Source of the DNA: Polaromonas sp. YR568 | GTDB taxonomy: Bacteria > Pseudomonadota > Gammaproteobacteria > Burkholderiales > Burkholderiaceae_C | NCBI RefSeq assembly: GCF_900116715.1 | Contig: NZ_FPBM01000004.1 | Location: 124,001 to 188,000 of the forward strand | Reading direction: 5' to 3' | Length of the DNA stretch: 64,000 bases | Shown: positions 6,098 to 61,692 of the stretch, in pieces | Layout of the letters: every line of letters begins with the position of its first letter | Numbering within the stretch: the first letter of the stretch is position 1 | Translations under genes and position numbers: made by a program | The notes under the pieces: model-generated | The model's database searches: none | What the model was told of the DNA's origin: nothing | The model's input: the letters and a program-made list of their open reading frames with translations, nothing else

Positions 6098-6194
6098 GGA
6101 GTACTCCAATGAGTTGCCAGCGCTTGGACGGGACACCGTCTATCTGTGAAGATTCGGGAGGCTGAAATCCCGATGGGCGAATACTAGCACCGAC

Positions 6195-8654: not shown

Positions 8655-8681
8655 TCAAAAAGACTCCGGCCGAAAACCCAT

Positions 8682-8833
8682 GACTGCACGGCATCCCCGG
8701 CCTGAAGCGGAGGCTGTGCAGTCAAAGGTCTCGCGTGATCCGAAGACCGCTTGCGCCATGCTCTGAGTGAGCAAGTCTGTTGACGCAAGCCCCTTTCAGG
8801 ATTGAAAGGCTGGCTACTCCCCAATGACAGCCT
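8682..8833 (-). promoter_or_regulatory. yybP-ykoY manganese riboswitch with expression platform
   Basis: Read on the minus strand the two hallmark loops are present: GGGGAGTAGCC (8822-8812) and CGCGAGACCTTTG (8735-8723). The closing helix P1 can form from AGGCTGT (8833-8827) and ACAGCCT (8717-8711). The P1 3' strand overlaps a second hairpin with arms 8716-8723 and 8682-8689 (GACTGCAC/GTGCAGTC), giving two exclusive states. In this class Mn2+ binding stabilises the aptamer and turns on exporter expression. The exporter ATG at 8654 has CGGAG 8-9 bases upstream, just beyond the second hairpin. Confidence 0.9.
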
Positions 8834-8835
8834 GC

Positions 8836-52063: not shown

Positions 52064-53368
52064 TCAGGCGGTGCCGTGCAGCAGGGTCTGGAACAGGTCT
52101 TCGCTGCCCATTTGCCCACCCTTGAGCATGATCTCCATGCCGTCGAGCGCAGCCTCGTCGCTGTGCAGGCGGCACAGGGCGACGCCGGGTGCGAGTTGCG
52201 CCGCGTAGGACAGGCCCCAGGCGTTGAGCGCCTGCACGGCGTGGCTGGAGGTGTCGCCGCCGGCAATGCCGAGGCGGCGCAGGGGAGCGGCTTTGAGCAC
52301 GCGCGCCAGCAGCTCGCCACAGGCTTGCGCGAGTGCGCGGCTGTCTACGGCGCTGCCGGGCGCAGGGTCTGGCGCTGAAGTGCAGGCCAGCACGTGGCGG
52401 CCCTGGGCCAGCAGCCCCGCAATTTGCGCCGACATCTGCTGTGCGTAGTCTGCATCGCCGGTAAGGCGGGCAGCGTCCAGTGCGACCTGCCGGTAAGAGC
52501 TGGCTGCCTGGACCTGCAGCGCCGTCATGGGCGAGAGGCTGCCGGCCAGCACCAGCACGGGGCCGGTGGCCGCAGCGATGCGGGTTGTGGTGGCCTCTGC
52601 ATTCGCCTGCCAGTGCGCGGCCAGGGCCTGCACAACGCTGCTGGGGCCGACGGCCAGCAGGCGCTGGGTTTGTGCGCGTTGCCAGATCAGCCGGCCCACA
52701 GTGGCCAGGTGGCCGGTGTGGGCAACGTCGAGCAAGACCGCGTCAGGCTTGCGGGCCAAAAGCGCATCGAGCTGCCGGCTCAGCGCTTCGGCGTCCTGGT
52801 CGTAGCTGGGGTAGTCCACGCCCGCAACCTGCGCCAGGCCTTGCGCGGCCAGGTGCTTGCGCAGGTCGGCTTCGTGCATGGGCGTGACGGGGTGCCGGCT
52901 CATGGTGGGGTGGCGGTCTATGCGGTGGATGTTTTCACCGGCGCCTGCGAACAGGTTGCCGAACACGCAGTAGCGCCTGAGGTTGGGCTGGCCGCCCACG
53001 ATGGGCACCAGGGCGTTGCCGGCGTGCGGCTGCAGGATGCGGATGGCCGCGCCTATGCTGCCGACGTGGGGTGCGCTGTCGAAGGTCGAGCAGGTTTTGT
53101 AGTGCATGACCGGCGCGCCCAGGCGCGCGAACAGCTGGCCCACCGGTTCGAGTTCAGCGCGCATTTCGTCGGGGCTCATCGCACGGGCCGCGCCGGCAAT
53201 GCCCAGGCAGTCGAGCGGGCCTGCGCGCTGCAGTTGCGCGTCGGTTGGCAGGCCGAGGAAGAGCAGTGTGCGAAGGCCCGCTCGCGCGGCGGTGGCCAGC
53301 GTGTCGGTGGCGCCGGTGAAGTCGTCACCGTAATAGGCCACCTTGAGCCGGCCGTCGTGCGAAGCCAT
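52064..53368 (-). CDS. DUF1537 four-carbon acid sugar kinase family protein (OiaK/OtnK-like)
   Basis: 434 residues. The N-terminal Asp-rich motif is AYYGDDFTGATDTL near residue 11, the middle has VLVLAGSLSPMTALQ and the C-terminal nucleotide site is GIAGGDTSSHAVQAL. Members phosphorylate 3- or 4-carbon and branched sugar acids (OtnK, DtnK and, in D-apiose breakdown, OiaK on 3-oxo-isoapionate). It starts 3 bases after the RuBisCO-like gene, so the two are coupled. The same pairing with a RuBisCO-like protein occurs in OiaK/OiaX, which is why that role is preferred, but the substrate is not established. Confidence 0.85.
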   Translation of the reverse strand: MASHDGRLKVAYYGDDFTGATDTLATAARAGLRTLLFLGLPTDAQLQRAGPLDCLGIAGAARAMSPDEMRAELEPVGQLFARLGAPVMHYKTCSTFDSAPHVGSIGAAIRILQPHAGNALVPIVGGQPNLRRYCVFGNLFAGAGENIHRIDRHPTMSRHPVTPMHEADLRKHLAAQGLAQVAGVDYPSYDQDAEALSRQLDALLARKPDAVLLDVAHTGHLATVGRLIWQRAQTQRLLAVGPSSVVQALAAHWQANAEATTTRIAAATGPVLVLAGSLSPMTALQVQAASSYRQVALDAARLTGDADYAQQMSAQIAGLLAQGRHVLACTSAPDPAPGSAVDSRALAQACGELLARVLKAAPLRRLGIAGGDTSSHAVQALNAWGLSYAAQLAPGVALCRLHSDEAALDGMEIMLKGGQMGSEDLFQTLLHGTA

Positions 53369-53371
53369 GGT

Positions 53372-54658
53372 TTACTTGCCGAAGAAGGCGAGTGCGGCCG
53401 CCAGCTCTGGCGCCTCACGCGCATGGTCGGCCAGCGTGACGCCCGCACGCGCGGCCGCCCAGGCCTGGCGGATGCTGGCGACGCCCGCGGCCGGGCCGCC
53501 CGGGTGCGCGAGGATGCCGCCGCCGGACATAAAAAGCAGGTCGTCGTTCTTCACCGCGGCCCAGGTGGCGGGCACGGTGCCGGCCCATTGGCCTGACGAG
53601 AAGGCCGGCATGACGCGATCGTCCACGCTGTTGATGCCATCTGTCAGTGGCGTGTAGCAGTCGTGCGCCGACTCGATGACCTCTTCGTCGGGTTGCGAGA
53701 ACTTGCCCTGCAAGCCGTGCACATGCATGTGGTCGACGCCTGCCAGTCGCCACAGCGTTTGATAAGCCTGAAAGGACATGCCCAGCAGCGGGTGCCGCGA
53801 CAGCGCGCCATAACCGTTGCGGTGGCCATGGATGGCCAGGCCGGTGTGGCGGCGCAGGGTCTGCATGCCTGAATGGCCGCACCAGTTGAGGCTGGCCATG
53901 ACGCAGCTGCCGCCTTCGCGCTCGACAAGGTCGGCATGGCGTTTCATGGCATCGGTTTCATCGGTGATGTTGAAGGCCACCATGACGTGTTTGCCGGTGC
54001 GCTGCTGGTGCTCGCGCACCACGGCCATCACGGCGGGCACGCGCTGGGCCAGCGGGGCATGGGCCGGGTCGGCGCAGACTTCGTCGTCCTTGATGAAGTC
54101 CACACCGGCTGCGCACAGGCGCGCCACCAGTTCGGCGGTTTGCGCGGCGCTGAAGCCGACATTGGGTTTGATGATGGTGCCGACCAGCGCGCCTGCAGCT
54201 ACGCCCGTGGCCTTGCGTGTGCCGGCGATGCCGACCTGGGGCATGTCGAACTGCGCGCGGTAGGCGGCGGGCAGCTTCATGCTTTCAAGCCGCAGGCCGC
54301 TGGCTTCGCCCAGGTCGTAGAGGTTGCCGGAGACGGTGGCGGCCAGTGTGGGCAGGTTGGCGCCGATATTGGCAACAGGGAAGGAAATGCGCACGCGCGC
54401 GCGCCGCCAGGGGCCGCCCTTGGGTCCGGTATGGCCTTTGCGTTCCAGCAGGGCGTTGGGCAGGCTGGGCGCGTTCACGGATTCCAGCTCGTCGATCTGC
54501 TCGACGGTGGCGCGGGCGCGCTGGCGCAGCTCGTCGGTCTCGCCCTCCACGCGGGTGAAGGTGCCGCAGGACTGCTCGCCCGCCATCACCTCGGCCACCT
54601 GCGCGGGCGCCAGCGGGGTTTCGATCAGGTAGGTGGCTTCAAAGCGGTCGGCTTGCAT
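53372..54658 (-). CDS. RuBisCO-like protein (form IV, OiaX/non-photosynthetic type)
   Basis: 428 residues with nearly all RuBisCO active-site positions: Glu 28 and Thr 33 in AGEQSCGTFTRVEG (Trp 66 of RuBisCO replaced by Phe), Asn 112 in SGNLYDLG, Lys 164 in TIIKPNVGFS, the carbamate Lys-Asp-Asp-Glu at 190-193 (DFIKDDE), His 277 and Arg 280 in AIHGHRNGYG, DHMHVHGLQGKF with loop-6 Lys 319, and SGGGILAHPGG. It should enolise a phosphorylated beta-keto acid. OiaX of the D-apionate pathway works this way on 3-oxo-isoapionate-4-phosphate. The gene order with a DUF1537 kinase supports this; the VOC neighbour does not belong to that known pathway. Confidence 0.9.
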   Translation of the reverse strand: MQADRFEATYLIETPLAPAQVAEVMAGEQSCGTFTRVEGETDELRQRARATVEQIDELESVNAPSLPNALLERKGHTGPKGGPWRRARVRISFPVANIGANLPTLAATVSGNLYDLGEASGLRLESMKLPAAYRAQFDMPQVGIAGTRKATGVAAGALVGTIIKPNVGFSAAQTAELVARLCAAGVDFIKDDEVCADPAHAPLAQRVPAVMAVVREHQQRTGKHVMVAFNITDETDAMKRHADLVEREGGSCVMASLNWCGHSGMQTLRRHTGLAIHGHRNGYGALSRHPLLGMSFQAYQTLWRLAGVDHMHVHGLQGKFSQPDEEVIESAHDCYTPLTDGINSVDDRVMPAFSSGQWAGTVPATWAAVKNDDLLFMSGGGILAHPGGPAAGVASIRQAWAAARAGVTLADHAREAPELAAALAFFGK

Positions 54659-54666
54659 GGCGGTGC

Positions 54667-55206
54667 TCAGAGTTTGCTCAGATCTGGGAAGGGGCGCACC
54701 GGGTCGCTGCCGTCCCAGCCTTCGCTGGAGCTGCGGATCAGGTCGAACATCTTGCCCTTGGGGCCGGCGACTTCGGAGAGCTCGATCACGGTGCCGGGGT
54801 GGTATTCGGTGTCGAAGTAGATGAAGCGGCCGTTCTGGCCGACCTCGCCCTTCATGACCGGCTTGAAGCCCTGTTTGAGCAGGCGCTCCAGGTCGGCGTC
54901 GTAGTTGGTCGTCCAGTAGGCGACGTGCTGCAGCCCGGTGCGGCCGGCTTGCAGGAAGTCGCGGTACATCGAAGGCACGTCGTTGCGCGTCTGGATCAGC
55001 TCGACCTGCACAAAGCCTGAGTTGGCCAGCGCCACCGAGTTGTGCGGCTCATGCGACTCGCCTTTGTAGCTGTAGTTTTTGATGGGCACCTTGGGGTTGT
55101 AGAACCAGGGGCCGACGCCAAGCGTTTCGCTCCAGTACTTCATCGCGGCCTCGATGTCGGGCACGACGTAGCCCAGCTGGCGGATCTCGCCAAAAAATTT
55201 GCTCAT
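54667..55206 (-). CDS. VOC family enzyme (glyoxalase fold)
   Basis: 179 residues with two VOC modules: LGYVVPDIEAAMKYWSETLG (first ligand position is Tyr instead of His), VALANSGFVQVELIQ with a Glu, GLQHVAYWTTNYDADLERLL with His, and GTVIELSEV with Glu. At least three metal ligands therefore survive. It may be an isomerase, lyase or dioxygenase. It starts 28 bases after dctQM and ends 8 bases before the RuBisCO-like gene, so it is part of the same operon and probably acts on the same or a derived substrate. Confidence 0.85.
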   Translation of the reverse strand: MSKFFGEIRQLGYVVPDIEAAMKYWSETLGVGPWFYNPKVPIKNYSYKGESHEPHNSVALANSGFVQVELIQTRNDVPSMYRDFLQAGRTGLQHVAYWTTNYDADLERLLKQGFKPVMKGEVGQNGRFIYFDTEYHPGTVIELSEVAGPKGKMFDLIRSSSEGWDGSDPVRPFPDLSKL

Positions 55207-55234
55207 GTTGTTTTGCTCCAGTGAAATGGACGGA

Positions 55235-57118
55235 TTAGTTTTTGAGGAAACCGGTAGAGAACCAGGGCACGGCCGCCACCAGGGCCAGGCCGACCAGCAG
55301 CGCGCCCATGTAAGCCCAGATGTAGGGAATGCCTTCGTCGGGGTCGACCTTGCTGACCGCGCAGGCGCCGTAGTAGCCGACGCCGAAGGGCGGCGCGAAG
55401 AGGCCTATGCCCATGGCGAAGATCACGACCATGGCGTAGTGCACGTCATGCACGCCGACCATGCGGGCGATAGGAAAAAGCAGCGGGCCGAACAGCACGA
55501 TGGCGGGGATGCCTTCGAGCACGCTGCCCAGGATGACAAAAGCGACGATGGACACGGCGAGGAAGCCGTAGGCGCCGCCGGGCAGGCTGCCCATGATGCG
55601 CGCCAGGTCTTGCGAGAAACCCGACTGCGTGAGGCCCCAGGCCATGGCGGTGGCGCAGCCGATGATGAACATGATGGCGCCGGTGAGCGAGGCGGTTTCG
55701 ATCAGCATGGGCATGAGGCGGCGCCACGGAAACTGCCGGTACAGAAAGAGCCCCGCCAGTACCGAATAGATGATGCCGATGGTGGAGACCTCGGTGGCGG
55801 TGGCCACGCCTTCGACCACTGCCGCGCGGATGACAAAGGGCAGGATGATGGCGGGCAGGGCGATCAGCAGCAGCTTGCCGATTTCGCGTTTGCTGTAGCG
55901 GGCGACGCCGCTCAGGTCTTCATGGCGGTAGCGCCACCACACGACGGTGCAGAGCGCCAGCCCCAGCACCACGGCGGGCAGCAGGCCGCCGGTGAAGAGC
56001 GCGGCAATCGACACGCCGGTGACGGAGCCGATAGTGATGAGCACGATGGAGGGCGGAATCGTTTCGGTCTGCGCGCCGGTGGCCGACAGCAGCGCCACCA
56101 GGTCGCCGGGCTTGGCGCCGCGCTTTTTCATTTCAGGAAAGAGCACGGGCGCAATCGCGGCCATGTCGGCGATCTTGGAGCCCGAGATACCCGAGACCAG
56201 GTACATCGCACCAATCAGCACATAGCTGAGGCCGCCGCGCACATGGCCGAGCAGGCTGGCGAGGAACTGGATCATGGCCTTGGCCATGCCGGTCATCTCG
56301 ATCAGCGCGCCCAGAAAGATAAAGAGCGGCACCGCCAGCAGGATCATGTGCGACATGCCTTCGTCCATGCGGCCGACCATGACTAGCAGCGGCGTGGAGG
56401 TGGTGAGCGCGAGGTAGCCGAAGGTGGCCAGCGCGAACGAGAACGCGATAGGCACACCCGACAGCACGGTGCCGGCCACGATGACGACAAAGAAGATGAT
56501 CAGGTTGAGCTTGCCCAGCGGTTGCAGCAGCGGTTGCGCGAACCAGAACAGCGCGACGACGGCAGCGGTGCCGGCCAGCGCGATGCCGGTTTGTTTGAAG
56601 GTGCTGATGCGCAAGAGGCGCAGCACGGCGACCACGACCATGAGCCCCATGCCGACCGGAATGGCCGAGGCACGCCAGGCGTTGTTGACTTCCATCGCCG
56701 CGGTGACGATGAAGCTTTCTTCATAGGCGTATTCACCCGCCGGGTAAATCACCAGCACCAGGAAGGCGATGGAGGCGGTGATGGCGATGGTGTCGAGCAG
56801 CGCGCGGGTGTGCGGGCTGACGTTGTTGACCAGCGCCGTCATGCGCATGTGTTCGCCGCGGCGCAGCGCGACGACCGCACCCAGCATCGACAGCCAGAGG
56901 AACATGATGGACGCGAGCTCGTCTGACCAGACCAGCGGTGAATGGAAGACGTAGCGCGAGACCACGCCGGCGAACAGCACGATGATTTCGGCCAGCACCA
57001 GGGCGGCGGCGATGGACTCCACCACATAACCCAGGCCGCGGTCGACCTTGTGCGCGAGGCCGCTCAGCGGGTTCGCGGGCGGTGCGTCGGCGGGCGGTTG
57101 AAGGGAAGCGTGGGACAT
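55235..57118 (-). CDS. TRAP transporter fused permease (DctQ-DctM)
   Basis: 627 residues. The N-terminal part (about 1-180) is a DctQ-type small permease of four segments (LVWSDELASIMFLWLSMLG, RRGEHMRMTALVNN). From about 200 the DctM large permease of twelve segments follows (SGVPIAFSFALATFGYLAL, LAVPLFIFLGALIEMTGMA, ISGSKIADMAAIAPVLFPE, LGSVLEGIPAIVLFGPLLFP). It uses the sodium gradient to bring in an organic acid captured by the DctP binding protein. The two subunits are separate genes in most systems, so the fusion is a variant. Confidence 0.93.
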   Translation of the reverse strand: MSHASLQPPADAPPANPLSGLAHKVDRGLGYVVESIAAALVLAEIIVLFAGVVSRYVFHSPLVWSDELASIMFLWLSMLGAVVALRRGEHMRMTALVNNVSPHTRALLDTIAITASIAFLVLVIYPAGEYAYEESFIVTAAMEVNNAWRASAIPVGMGLMVVVAVLRLLRISTFKQTGIALAGTAAVVALFWFAQPLLQPLGKLNLIIFFVVIVAGTVLSGVPIAFSFALATFGYLALTTSTPLLVMVGRMDEGMSHMILLAVPLFIFLGALIEMTGMAKAMIQFLASLLGHVRGGLSYVLIGAMYLVSGISGSKIADMAAIAPVLFPEMKKRGAKPGDLVALLSATGAQTETIPPSIVLITIGSVTGVSIAALFTGGLLPAVVLGLALCTVVWWRYRHEDLSGVARYSKREIGKLLLIALPAIILPFVIRAAVVEGVATATEVSTIGIIYSVLAGLFLYRQFPWRRLMPMLIETASLTGAIMFIIGCATAMAWGLTQSGFSQDLARIMGSLPGGAYGFLAVSIVAFVILGSVLEGIPAIVLFGPLLFPIARMVGVHDVHYAMVVIFAMGIGLFAPPFGVGYYGACAVSKVDPDEGIPYIWAYMGALLVGLALVAAVPWFSTGFLKN

Positions 57119-57166
57119 GAGGTCTCCGGGAAGAGGGCGAGAGGATTGCGGCTACTGGTTTTAGCG

Positions 57167-57273
57167 CCTTCCCCCGCTGGGGGAAGGTTGGGATGGGGGC
57201 TTGCGGCAGAAGCAAAAGCGCTTGCTCAATCGCCGCTGGCCCTCACCCCTACCCTCTCCCAGGGGGAGAGGGG
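57167..57273. repeat. REP-like palindromic repeats between dctP and dctQM
   Basis: Two G/C hairpins: CCTTCCCCC-GCT-GGGGGAAGG (57167-57187) and CCCTCTCCC-AGG-GGGAGAGGG (57253-57273). The CCCTCTCC/GGGAGAGG core is a well-known dispersed bacterial motif. In this position it could stop polymerase or protect the upstream dctP message. Confidence 0.65.
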
Positions 57274-57291
57274 GGAAGAGAGGGGAAAGCC

Positions 57292-58311
57292 TTAGGCCAG
57301 TTTGCCGACTGACTGTTCTAGCAAGCCCCAGGCCTCGGCGCCAAAACGCTCCTTCCACTCGCCATAAAAACCGGCTTCACGCAGCTTGGCACGGAAGGTA
57401 TCGGCTTGCGGGCGGTTGATGGTGAGGCCCTTGGACTGCAAATCGGTGACCACGGTCTCGTTGAGCTTTTTGATGTCGTCGCGCTGTTGCAGGCCGGCTT
57501 CGTTGATGGCGCGGGCCACGATGGTCTTGAGGTCGGCGGGCAGCTTCTCCCACGCGCGGCCGTTGGCGATGAACCAGTAGCCATCCCAGATGTGGTTGGT
57601 CAGCGAGCAGAACTTCTGCACTTCGTACAGCTTGGCGACCTGGATGATGGGCAGCGGGTTTTCCTGCGCGTCGACGATCTTGGTTTGCAGCGAGGAATAC
57701 ACCTCGCTGAACTGCAGGCTGGCGGGCGCGGCGCCCAGGCCCTTGAACATGGAGATCGACAGCGGGCTCACCGGCACGCGGATCTTCAGGCCGTCCATGT
57801 CTTTGGCTGTGGTGACGGGCGCCTTGCTGCTGGTGGTCTGGCGGAAGCCGTTGTCCCACATCTTTTCAAAAGCATAGAGGCGCGATTTGCTGATGGCTTC
57901 GCGCACATGCGCGCCCAGCTTGCCGTCCATGGCGCCCCAGACCTGGTTGTAGTCGCTGAAGGCAAAACCGACGGCGTTGATGGCGGCCACCGGCACCAGG
58001 GTGGCGATGACCAGGGCCGACGGTGTGAAGAACTCGATGCCGCCGGAGCGCACCTGGGCCAGCATGTCGGTGTCGCCGCCCAGCTGGTTGTTCGGGAAGA
58101 TCTTGATCTCGACCCGGCCGTTGGTTTCTTTGAGGATGCGGTCGGCGGCCTGCTGGGCGCGGATGTTGAGCGGGTGGGTGACGGGCAGGTTGTTGCCGTA
58201 CTTGTAGGAGAACTCGGCGGCGCGGGCCATGGAGGGCAGGGCGGCGGCGATGCCGGCGGCGGATGCGGCGGACAGGGTGCGCAGCACGCTGCGGCGGGTG
58301 ACTTCGGTCAT
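57292..58311 (-). CDS. TRAP transporter substrate-binding protein DctP
   Basis: 339 residues. A twin-arginine-like leader (EVTRRSVLRTLSAASAAG) precedes the DctP fold: NNLPVTHPLNIRAQQAADRI, GRVEIKIFPNNQLGGD, GLKIRVPVSPLSISMFKGLG and a late Arg in the RVP motif that binds the carboxylate. It scavenges an organic acid in the periplasm for the DctQM permease. ATG at 58311 follows GGAGACA; an upstream ATG at 58392 would run through the operator region. First gene of the operon. Confidence 0.92.
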   Translation of the reverse strand: MTEVTRRSVLRTLSAASAAGIAAALPSMARAAEFSYKYGNNLPVTHPLNIRAQQAADRILKETNGRVEIKIFPNNQLGGDTDMLAQVRSGGIEFFTPSALVIATLVPVAAINAVGFAFSDYNQVWGAMDGKLGAHVREAISKSRLYAFEKMWDNGFRQTTSSKAPVTTAKDMDGLKIRVPVSPLSISMFKGLGAAPASLQFSEVYSSLQTKIVDAQENPLPIIQVAKLYEVQKFCSLTNHIWDGYWFIANGRAWEKLPADLKTIVARAINEAGLQQRDDIKKLNETVVTDLQSKGLTINRPQADTFRAKLREAGFYGEWKERFGAEAWGLLEQSVGKLA

Positions 58312-58342
58312 GGTTTGTCTCCAGTTTTGTTTTGATGCAATT

Positions 58343-58352
58343 TGATGCATCA
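58343..58352. promoter_or_regulatory. Palindrome TGATGCATCA, likely operator of the LacI regulator
   Basis: A perfect 10-bp palindrome in the gap between dctP and the LacI-type gene. The half-site TTTGATG recurs at 58331-58337 and 58418-58424. Such spaced sites between a divergent regulator and its operon fit a LacI-type operator, though no binding data exist. Confidence 0.5.
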
Positions 58353-58425
58353 TTGGGTGAAAGCAGCGCAACGATAGGCGCGGGGTATTCAATCGTCAAA
58401 CAGGAAAAATGATGGATTTTGATGT

Positions 58426-59490
58426 ATGAGGGTTATCCCTGATGGATTGGAGGGGCAGCAGCAGCGGGCTCGCGTGGTCGACATTGCGCGGGCCGCGGGT
58501 GTTTCCACCGCCACTGTAGACCGCGTGCTGAACCAGCGCCCCGGCGTGCGCGGGGCCACCGCGCAAAAAGTGCTCAAGGCCGCGGCCGAGATGGACTACC
58601 TGCCAGAGACGGGCCTGTATGCCGCGCTCGCCGCGCCGCCCATGCGCCTGACGTTTTTGCTGCCCGACGGCAGCAACCGCTTTATCCGCATGCTGGGCGA
58701 CACGGTGGGTTATTCGCAGGAGCACCTGACGCCCTTTAACGTGAAGTGCCGTACAGAGCTGTTTGAAAGCTTCAACCCGCAGCAGCTGGCCGCCAGCTTG
58801 CTGCAACAGGGCAAGCGCAGCGAGGGCATTGCCTTTATGGCGCTGGAGCACCCGGCGGTGCGCGAAGCGGTGAGCGAGCTGGCCGAAAAAGGCGTGCCCA
58901 CCATCACGCTGATCTCGGACCTGTCGGGCTCGCAGCGCGCCGGTTATGTGGGGCTGGACAACCGCGCGGCGGGGCGTACGGCGGGCTACCTGGTGGGCCG
59001 CTTCATCGGCCCTGGCGCGCGCGCCGGCAAGGTGGCGCTGATCGCCGGCTCGCTGAGCTACCGCGCGCATGAGGAGCGCGAAGCCGGTTTCCTGCATGTG
59101 ATTGAAGAGATGTTTCCCACGCTGCAGGTGGTGGGCCTGCGCGAAGGGCAGGACGACGCGCAGAAGAACTACGAGCAGACGCGCACGCTGCTGGAGCAAT
59201 ACCCCGACCTCGCGGGCATTTACAACATCGGCGGCGCGTCTGACGGCGTGGCTCGGGCGTTAAAGGAGAGCGGGCGCGAGCACAAGGTGGTGTTTATCGG
59301 CCACGGCCTCACGCCCGACACGCGCGCGATGCTGATTGACGGCAGCATGGACGCGGTGATTACCCAAAGCCCGCAGACGGCGATGATGAGTTGCGTGCGG
59401 ATGTTTACCAACCTGCGGGATAGGCGGGATGTGATGAGTGGGGTTGATGCGGTACGCAGCCAGGTGATCTTCAGGGAAAACCTGCCCTAG
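58426..59490 (+). CDS. LacI family transcriptional regulator
   Basis: 354 residues. The LacI HTH is RVVDIARAAGVSTATVDRVL with the hinge helix region VLKAAAEMDYLP, and the sugar-binding PBP-like domain follows (LTFLLPDGSNRFIRML, VPTITLISDLSGSQRAGYVG, GIYNIGGASDGVARAL, VFIGHGLTPDTRAML). It should repress the divergent TRAP/RuBisCO-like operon in the absence of its sugar-acid ligand. The ATG at 58426 has only a weak ribosome-binding site. A TGATGCATCA palindrome lies between the two units. Confidence 0.9.
   Translation: MRVIPDGLEGQQQRARVVDIARAAGVSTATVDRVLNQRPGVRGATAQKVLKAAAEMDYLPETGLYAALAAPPMRLTFLLPDGSNRFIRMLGDTVGYSQEHLTPFNVKCRTELFESFNPQQLAASLLQQGKRSEGIAFMALEHPAVREAVSELAEKGVPTITLISDLSGSQRAGYVGLDNRAAGRTAGYLVGRFIGPGARAGKVALIAGSLSYRAHEEREAGFLHVIEEMFPTLQVVGLREGQDDAQKNYEQTRTLLEQYPDLAGIYNIGGASDGVARALKESGREHKVVFIGHGLTPDTRAMLIDGSMDAVITQSPQTAMMSCVRMFTNLRDRRDVMSGVDAVRSQVIFRENLP

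Positions 59491-61692
<2,202 letters not shown>

Follow-up and report, generated by a model that had tools for sequence, protein, structure and literature searches.

A conserved gene cassette combining a VOC-superfamily enzyme, a RuBisCO-like protein and a DUF1537 kinase, possibly for the breakdown of a branched sugar acid

The 64,000-nucleotide stretch of Polaromonas sp. YR568 analysed here (assembly GCF_900116715.1, contig NZ_FPBM01000004.1, 124,001–188,000; “the window”, whose numbering is used for all positions below) carries a minus-strand operon encoding a tripartite ATP-independent periplasmic (TRAP) transporter, an enzyme of the vicinal oxygen chelate (VOC) superfamily, a RuBisCO-like protein (RLP) and a DUF1537 acid-sugar kinase, with a LacI-family regulator gene divergent from it, as initially annotated. 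The operon is conserved and probably complete, with an RLP from an uncharacterised clade, and is a variant within the known RLP/DUF1537 kind, with a VOC enzyme where the apionate pathway has its own entry enzymes. With middling confidence, we read it as a cassette that suffices by itself for the catabolism of a small, branched sugar acid, and in which the VOC enzyme occupies the position held elsewhere by ApnO, the apionate oxidoisomerase. The initial proposal of a variant route entered through a different enzyme is supported by the conservation of the VOC gene, by an RLP clade separate from OiaX and by family scores below the cut-offs. We found no account of the cassette in the open-access literature, a weak negative as most subscription papers lay outside its scope.

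In soil bacteria the cassette recurs as a compact set with very constant partners. A scan of species genomes gave at least 583 relatives, of which the best 80 loci were compared; many of these come from close Variovorax, Azospirillum or Achromobacter kin and the 80 are therefore not independent, while some genomes of the other searches described below repeat those of the 80. The kinase follows the RLP in every one of the 80 loci, the VOC gene directly precedes the RLP in 79 (the one miss is at a contig edge), and a divergent LacI gene is found in 78, with both misses (L005 and L031) at contig ends. The transporter is of the TRAP type in 67 loci and an amino-acid-type ATP-binding cassette (ABC) transporter in 12, and in 12 loci a gene for a short-chain dehydrogenase/reductase (SDR) lies between LacI and the transporter. 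The ABC-type cassettes, L028 for example, use a solute-binding protein of the SBP_bac_3 family. No match above 100 bits to ApnO or to the apionate lactonase, ApnL, occurs in the 80 stretches. Four of the alphaproteobacterial plasmids viewed also carry the cassette. A genome-neighbourhood comparison, proposed earlier as a check for a conserved VOC and TRAP partner, thus finds both, and the VOC gene is not missing from homologous loci, an outcome that had been named as telling against a new pathway. Working from a single locus, the initial annotation had overlooked how widespread the cassette is, the SDR, the ABC transporter in place of TRAP, and the presence of the solved structure 3nwr in the RLP clade (see below).

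The same association appears in broader samples. In an even sample of 397 genomes from the phylum of the window, a VOC protein of at least 68% identity is present in nine (the window's own genome included), each time adjoining an RLP, and the next VOC match is at 53%. Eight of these nine RLPs are 60–100% identical to the window RLP; seven of the eight were placed in the tree, all of them in the cassette clade. In 387 genomes of the class to which genome G185 belongs (discussed below), VOC proteins of at least 71% identity occur in three, all within the cassette, and relatives of 54–59% in 13 (E limit 1e-60); the 11 of these 13 that were viewed have no RLP, DUF1537 kinase or TRAP marker nearby.

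OiaX (NF042437) and OiaK (NF042436) are the top-scoring curated families for the window RLP and kinase, respectively. Since the scores of 434 bits (RLP) and 344 bits (kinase) lie under the equivalog cut-offs of 700 in both cases, the two proteins do not count as members of these families by score; the annotated OiaX of locus L084 scores 761 bits against the same OiaX model. The kinase has the SBD_N and NBD_C domains of the DUF1537 acid-sugar kinases and scores 181 bits against 3-oxo-tetronate kinase (cut-off 350). The nearest solved structure to the RLP is PDB 3nwr (644 bits, with the next structure at 174 bits), the title of which reads merely “a rubisco-like protein”. The cassette RLPs and 3nwr form one clade, with a support of 100 (Shimodaira–Hasegawa-like approximate likelihood ratio test) in a 77-row tree and 100/100 in a 40-row tree, and OiaX forms a separate branch (100/100), in which L084 alone is annotated as OiaX and the other rows were assigned by 64–69% identity to it. 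The window RLP lies outside this branch, which answers the tree comparison proposed initially, and the kinase tree splits in the same way between cassette and other proteins. RLPs 76–93% identical to 3nwr are present in 13 genomes; in all eight of those fetched, the RLP is surrounded by VOC, kinase, TRAP and LacI genes.

The active-site columns were set by alignment with four open frames judged to be RuBisCO by their motifs (L162, L163, L270 and L271). The window RLP retains the residues of RuBisCO Glu60, Thr65, Asn123, Lys175, the carbamate site Lys201-Asp-Asp-Glu, His294, Arg295, His327 and Lys334 (E28, T33, N112, K164, K190-D-D-E, H279, R280, H312 and K319). The conserved residues listed initially (Glu28, Thr33, Asn112, Lys164, Lys-Asp-Asp-Glu, Arg280 and Lys319) thus agree with the alignment, and H312, at the His327 position, can be added to them; H277, also on that list, is indeed a histidine, but the His294 position is taken by H279. 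The claim that Trp66 alone is changed does not hold, as the positions of Thr173 (I162), Lys177 (N166) and Gly380 (S355) are altered as well. The full active-site set of RuBisCO forms I–III is accordingly lacking, and the RuBisCO domain (PF00016) with an altered active site makes the protein a form IV member.

Glu28, Asn112 and His312 are present in 43 of 43 cassette RLPs, while OiaX has Asp, Gly and Gln at these positions (5/5 rows). The 11 non-OiaX RLPs of ApnO/ApnL loci, together with L164, the RLP of G185, also keep all three (12/12); they differ from the cassette RLPs in having Ser and Asn in place of Asn166 and His314. Because the cassette RLP keeps these three residues, replaced in OiaX, we consider transcarboxylation/hydrolysis to 3-phosphoglycerate and a short acid somewhat likelier for it than plain decarboxylation. 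An excerpt of PMC6302742 names the RLP of Xanthobacter autotrophicus as a 3-oxo-isoapionate-4-phosphate transcarboxylase/hydrolase, the only such enzyme published. The active-site residues of the cassette are probably nearer to this enzyme, a likeness that is drawn through the non-OiaX RLPs of the apionate loci; transcarboxylation is put forward with caution. In one cassette, that of Paenalcaligenes niemegkensis (L038, 10001–12586), RLP and kinase share a single 861-residue open frame, which may reflect either a true gene fusion or an error in the assembly.

Carter et al. are said to have described, in 2018, the breakdown of D-apionate via OiaK and OiaX, with ApnO reportedly carrying both the oxidation and the isomerase activities. 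The cassette shares with this route the pair of DUF1537 kinase and RLP, in some loci together with a TRAP transporter, and the carbamate and loop-6 lysines of the RLP. It differs in having a VOC enzyme, a LacI instead of a NanR-like regulator, and an RLP and kinase that branch apart in the trees and do not reach the family cut-offs. Loci of the apionate type, recognised by ApnO or ApnL and by a NanR-like regulator, contain RLPs, mostly with an adjoining kinase (the stretches of L181 and L194 show none), and no cassette-type VOC gene. Neither ApnO nor ApnL has a match in the window genome, in line with the initial remark that no apionate oxidoisomerase or lactonase is nearby, and a D-apionate pathway of the known kind is thus not found there; nor is the combination that had been set against a new pathway, an RLP deep inside the OiaX clade with apionate genes elsewhere. 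The ApnO query is effective, as it recovers members in genomes G245 (65% identity) and G328 (57%); the ApnL query was controlled through the marker search of the loci only. Of nine other VOC-cassette genomes, G245 and G328 are the two that hold ApnO, and the remaining seven have no credible match (the best that G303, one of the seven, offers is a 29% partial match, E 5e-4). Ordinary D-apionate breakdown with scattered genes, in which the cassette would supply OiaK and OiaX and the VOC enzyme would be accessory or detoxifying, would account for the best-scoring named families and for ApnO in these two genomes. We find it highly doubtful, with RLP and kinase scoring far under the equivalog cut-offs, an RLP in a clade of its own, a window genome devoid of ApnO and ApnL matches, and a VOC gene retained between transporter and RLP in nearly all of the 80 loci.

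Also related are eight cassettes with a LysR-type regulator (L085, L089, L094, L182, L183 and L240–L242), which have in common with ours the SDR, RLP, DUF1537 kinase and a related TRAP transporter (DctQM at 63–70% identity in seven of the eight, none seen in L242). They differ in lacking a VOC gene, in their regulator, and in a pyruvate kinase gene nearby in seven of the eight (not seen in L182); L085 has mixed features, as it also contains ApnO and NanR. The pyruvate kinase or enolase of the LysR-type cassettes fits a 3-phosphoglycerate product in those groups. A further RLP–kinase clade comprises L090, L185 and L186; an ApnO search in the genomes of the latter two gave no match. In L090 (Croceibacterium) the pair lies among annotated glycosidases (fucosidase, galactosidases and an arabinofuranosidase domain), surroundings that suggest pectin-type breakdown.

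The VOC protein belongs to its superfamily by its Glyoxalase_4 domain, fold and candidate metal ligands. All 89 cassette sequences, and all 20 of the more distant relatives compared, have the same four residues, Gln10, Glu69, His94 and Glu142. Gln-Glu-His-Glu is the metal set of glyoxalase I, and is unlike the two-His-one-Glu iron site used by the dioxygenases. In a fold search with the AlphaFold model (mean predicted local distance difference test score, pLDDT, of 94.5), the top hit was 3gm5 (Z 16.8, root-mean-square deviation 2.2, 138 residues aligned), which is a putative methylmalonyl-CoA epimerase. The cassette VOC thus shares its fold with methylmalonyl-CoA epimerase and glyoxalase I, and with the latter also the ligand set; against the methylmalonyl-CoA epimerase model TIGR03081, however, it reaches 32 bits with a cut-off of 114.95, and it sits in a sugar-acid operon. 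Its best-supported role would be that of a proton-transfer isomerase or epimerase acting ahead of the kinase, because the residue set differs from the dioxygenase site and because of its position in the operon.

What the VOC enzyme may produce is best indicated by G185. In this genome the LacI regulator, DctP, DctQM and VOC are 61, 77, 75 and 80% identical to those of the window, while the RLP is only 55% identical, and RLP and kinase both fall, in their respective trees, within the clade of the apionate-locus and LysR-type proteins. Forcing the G185 RLP into the cassette clade is rejected (approximately unbiased test, p-AU 0.0008), although its exact place inside the apionate/LysR clade differs between trees; the kinase scores 551 bits against OiaK, compared with 344 for that of the window, and a search of the G185 genome for ApnO gave no match. 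A second genome, G485, has LacI, DctP and VOC (73%) with no RLP or kinase alongside, and an ApnO–NanR–RLP–kinase locus elsewhere, in which the RLP match has one TGA near its end. The plainest reading of the swap would be that the product of the VOC enzyme can be handled by an apionate-type kinase and RLP, so that this product would be 3-oxo-isoapionate or a near relative. Most likely, the VOC enzyme replaces ApnO and feeds an acid of the 3-oxo-isoapionate type to the kinase and RLP.

The swap would also suit an α-ketol version, in which an SDR, encoded in the operon or elsewhere, oxidises D-apionate at C2 and the VOC enzyme moves the hydroxymethyl group, taking over the isomerase half of ApnO, to give 3-oxo-isoapionate. 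ApnO matches an acetohydroxy-acid isomeroreductase domain (30 bits), fitting the migration step, and the SDR beside some cassettes and the lack of a credible ApnO in the window genome and in seven of the nine others point the same way. We nevertheless think this version unlikely: the best fold match of the VOC protein is an epimerase-type protein, most cassettes have no SDR, two of the nine genomes hold ApnO as well, and we know of no VOC enzyme that carries out a ketol migration.

An epimerase-like fold would also serve a linear acid. Zhang et al. reportedly described, in 2016, a 3-oxo-tetronate route (LtnD/OtnI/OtnK/OtnC) with the same logical order of dehydrogenase, isomerase, DUF1537 kinase and decarboxylase; the cassette differs from it in using a VOC enzyme and an RLP, OtnI and OtnC being of other folds. 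For a C4 acid of the tetronate type, the VOC enzyme would epimerise C2 of the 3-oxo acid in the manner of methylmalonyl-CoA epimerase, the kinase would form 3-oxo-tetronate 4-phosphate, and the RLP would decarboxylate this to dihydroxyacetone phosphate. The kinase does match 3-oxo-tetronate kinase, and otnK/otnC genes occur in the vicinity of the RLP at three loci (L085, L190 and L192), but the OiaK score is well over the 3-oxo-tetronate kinase score, the swapped pair of G185 belongs to the apionate/LysR clade, and an ordinary OtnC would suffice for the decarboxylation; we therefore regard such a route as quite improbable.

For the branched-acid cassette that we favour, the following sequence of events can be proposed. 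LacI would control the operon in response to the acid or a product of it, and the TRAP transporter, or the ABC transporter in other bacteria, would import the acid, which the SDR, where encoded, would oxidise first. The VOC enzyme, its metal presumably held by the four invariant residues, would then shift a proton between neighbouring carbons to give a 3-oxo acid of the 3-oxo-isoapionate type for the kinase, and would so stand in for ApnO, as the RLP–kinase swap supports. The kinase would phosphorylate a terminal hydroxyl, and the RLP, with a carbamylated Lys190 and the loop-6 Lys319, would break or move the carboxyl-bearing bond.

Chemically sensible candidates exist among branched acids of the uronic type: aceric acid, an apiose-type uronic acid or 2-carboxyarabinitol. 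Aceric acid is the 3-C-carboxy-5-deoxy-L-xylose of plant rhamnogalacturonan II. In a new pathway for such a compound, which we consider rather unlikely, the VOC enzyme would be a sugar-acid aldose–ketose isomerase giving a 2-hydroxy-2-alkyl-3-oxo acid, to be phosphorylated by the kinase and split by the RLP, as a transcarboxylase/hydrolase, into 3-phosphoglycerate and a short hydroxy acid. Acids of this type need no dehydrogenase, which fits the many cassettes without an SDR; to our knowledge, the VOC fold is not known to catalyse aldose–ketose isomerisation of sugar acids.

Several observations weigh against a cassette in which the VOC enzyme stands in for ApnO. No SDR accompanies 68 of the 80 cassettes, and the window genome offers no SDR match better than 49%, so that the imported compound may already be an oxo- or aldehyde acid, or the dehydrogenase may be encoded elsewhere; in L182, a LysR-type cassette with no VOC gene, RLP and kinase are accompanied by a related SDR (56%), which alone may suffice there. 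Below 3gm5, methylmalonyl-CoA epimerases (Z about 11–13), glyoxalase I (12.0) and dioxygenases of the 4-hydroxyphenylpyruvate dioxygenase type (up to 12.4) tie, and fold alone therefore does not settle the role of the VOC enzyme. Its relatives at 47–59% identity occupy other surroundings, which gave no pointer to function where they were viewed more widely (7 of 11 in the phylum set and 11 of 13 in the class set). Genome G430 contains a 62% identical VOC gene and related TRAP genes (L215:6500–14505) in the vicinity of genes for a DUF1537 kinase, a protein of the PdxA family and an aldolase of the DeoC/LacD type; a search of this genome for an RLP was negative. ApnO in two of the nine cassette genomes makes convergence on 3-oxo-isoapionate uncertain. 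One of the two, G245, has a gene resembling ApnL (36%) about 3 kb before its VOC cassette (L175:200–9300) and a second, apionate-type RLP–kinase pair (L192); were the routes fully convergent, it would be odd for one genome to maintain cassettes of the two types with an RLP in each, and the substrates of the routes may differ, or the routes may be connected in some other way. The VOC locus of G485 may be decaying, as DctQM is missing too. Finally, we infer the action of the swapped G185 pair on 3-oxo-isoapionate from its clade only, and the substrate and reactions of the cassette members likewise from sequence.

Regulation of the cassette shows a further conserved feature. The palindrome noted initially between LacI and the operon, TGATGCATCA, is present in the window, but among 79 intergenic regions upstream of LacI, those of the window and of 78 of the loci L001–L080, just 12 contain it exactly and 26 with at most one mismatch, and it was rejected as the operator. 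A direct repeat, CATCA-N5-CATCA, is found in 69 of the 79 regions and in at least two copies in 47, whereas shuffled regions contain it in 0.1% of cases; a spacer of four bases occurs in 2 regions and one of six bases in 1. A looser form of the repeat is present in at least two copies in 67 regions, with a first-to-last distance of 76–78 bases in 41, and the two sites of the window are 77 bases apart. A pattern of 12 fixed bases matches the window genome at the two cassette sites and at one more, inside open frames. LacI-family regulators usually bind palindromes, and a direct repeat would be unusual; the conserved putative operator nonetheless looks like a direct repeat and not a palindrome.

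The six genes lie where the initial annotation had placed them, with their families identified by NCBIfam and Pfam (Table 1). The gaps of 3 bases between kinase and RLP, 8 between RLP and VOC, and 28 between VOC and DctQM were likewise given correctly, and that between DctQM and DctP is 173 bases. The open frame of DctP extends upstream to a TTG at 58392; translation from the ATG at 58314 is more likely, because the 30 homologues aligned with it (31 sequences in all) begin alike and the longer form would cross the operator. The annotated start of LacI is 1 base from an operator-like site, so that the true start may be further inside the gene.

Table 1. Coordinates of the cassette genes and operator-like sites in the window
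Feature	Positions	Strand	Evidence and remarks
DUF1537 acid-sugar kinase (SBD_N + NBD_C), 434 amino acids	52064..53368	-	Pfam, 190 + 108 bits
RuBisCO-like protein (RLP), 428 amino acids	53372..54658	-	Pfam PF00016, 209 bits; clade with PDB 3nwr
VOC-superfamily enzyme, 179 amino acids	54667..55206	-	Pfam Glyoxalase_4; proposed isomerase
Fused DctQ-DctM TRAP membrane subunits, 627 amino acids	55235..57118	-	Pfam DctQ + DctM
TRAP solute-binding protein DctP	57292..58314	-	Pfam DctP
Operator-like site, transporter side	58333..58347	-	CATCA-N5-CATCA direct repeat; contig 182333-182347
Operator-like site, LacI side	58410..58424	-	CATCA-N5-CATCA direct repeat; contig 182410-182424
LacI-family regulator with Peripla_BP_4	58426..59490	+	Pfam

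The structure model of DctP is poor (pLDDT 64.8). Its nearest solved chain is 4oan (461 bits), reportedly modelled with 2-acetolactate. An excerpt of PMC5812351 counts 2-acetolactate among new TRAP ligands. As the 4oan gene sits in a different TRAP locus, of which two copies (L210 and L211) were viewed and showed neither an RLP nor a VOC marker, this is a weak lead only. Elsewhere in the window, Rfam matches mark a thiamine pyrophosphate (TPP) riboswitch (59568–59691), a manganese riboswitch (8660–8834) and a chrB-b RNA (6117–6173), all ordinary.

RuBisCO-like proteins have few known functions, and the RLP of the cassette keeps constant partners across many bacteria, including a solute-binding protein suited to direct ligand screening. 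If the VOC enzyme is an isomerase, it would represent a new fold in sugar-acid isomerisation and an ApnO-free entry to RuBisCO-like carbon chemistry; if the acid is instead of the branched uronic type, the whole 3nwr clade would gain a function.

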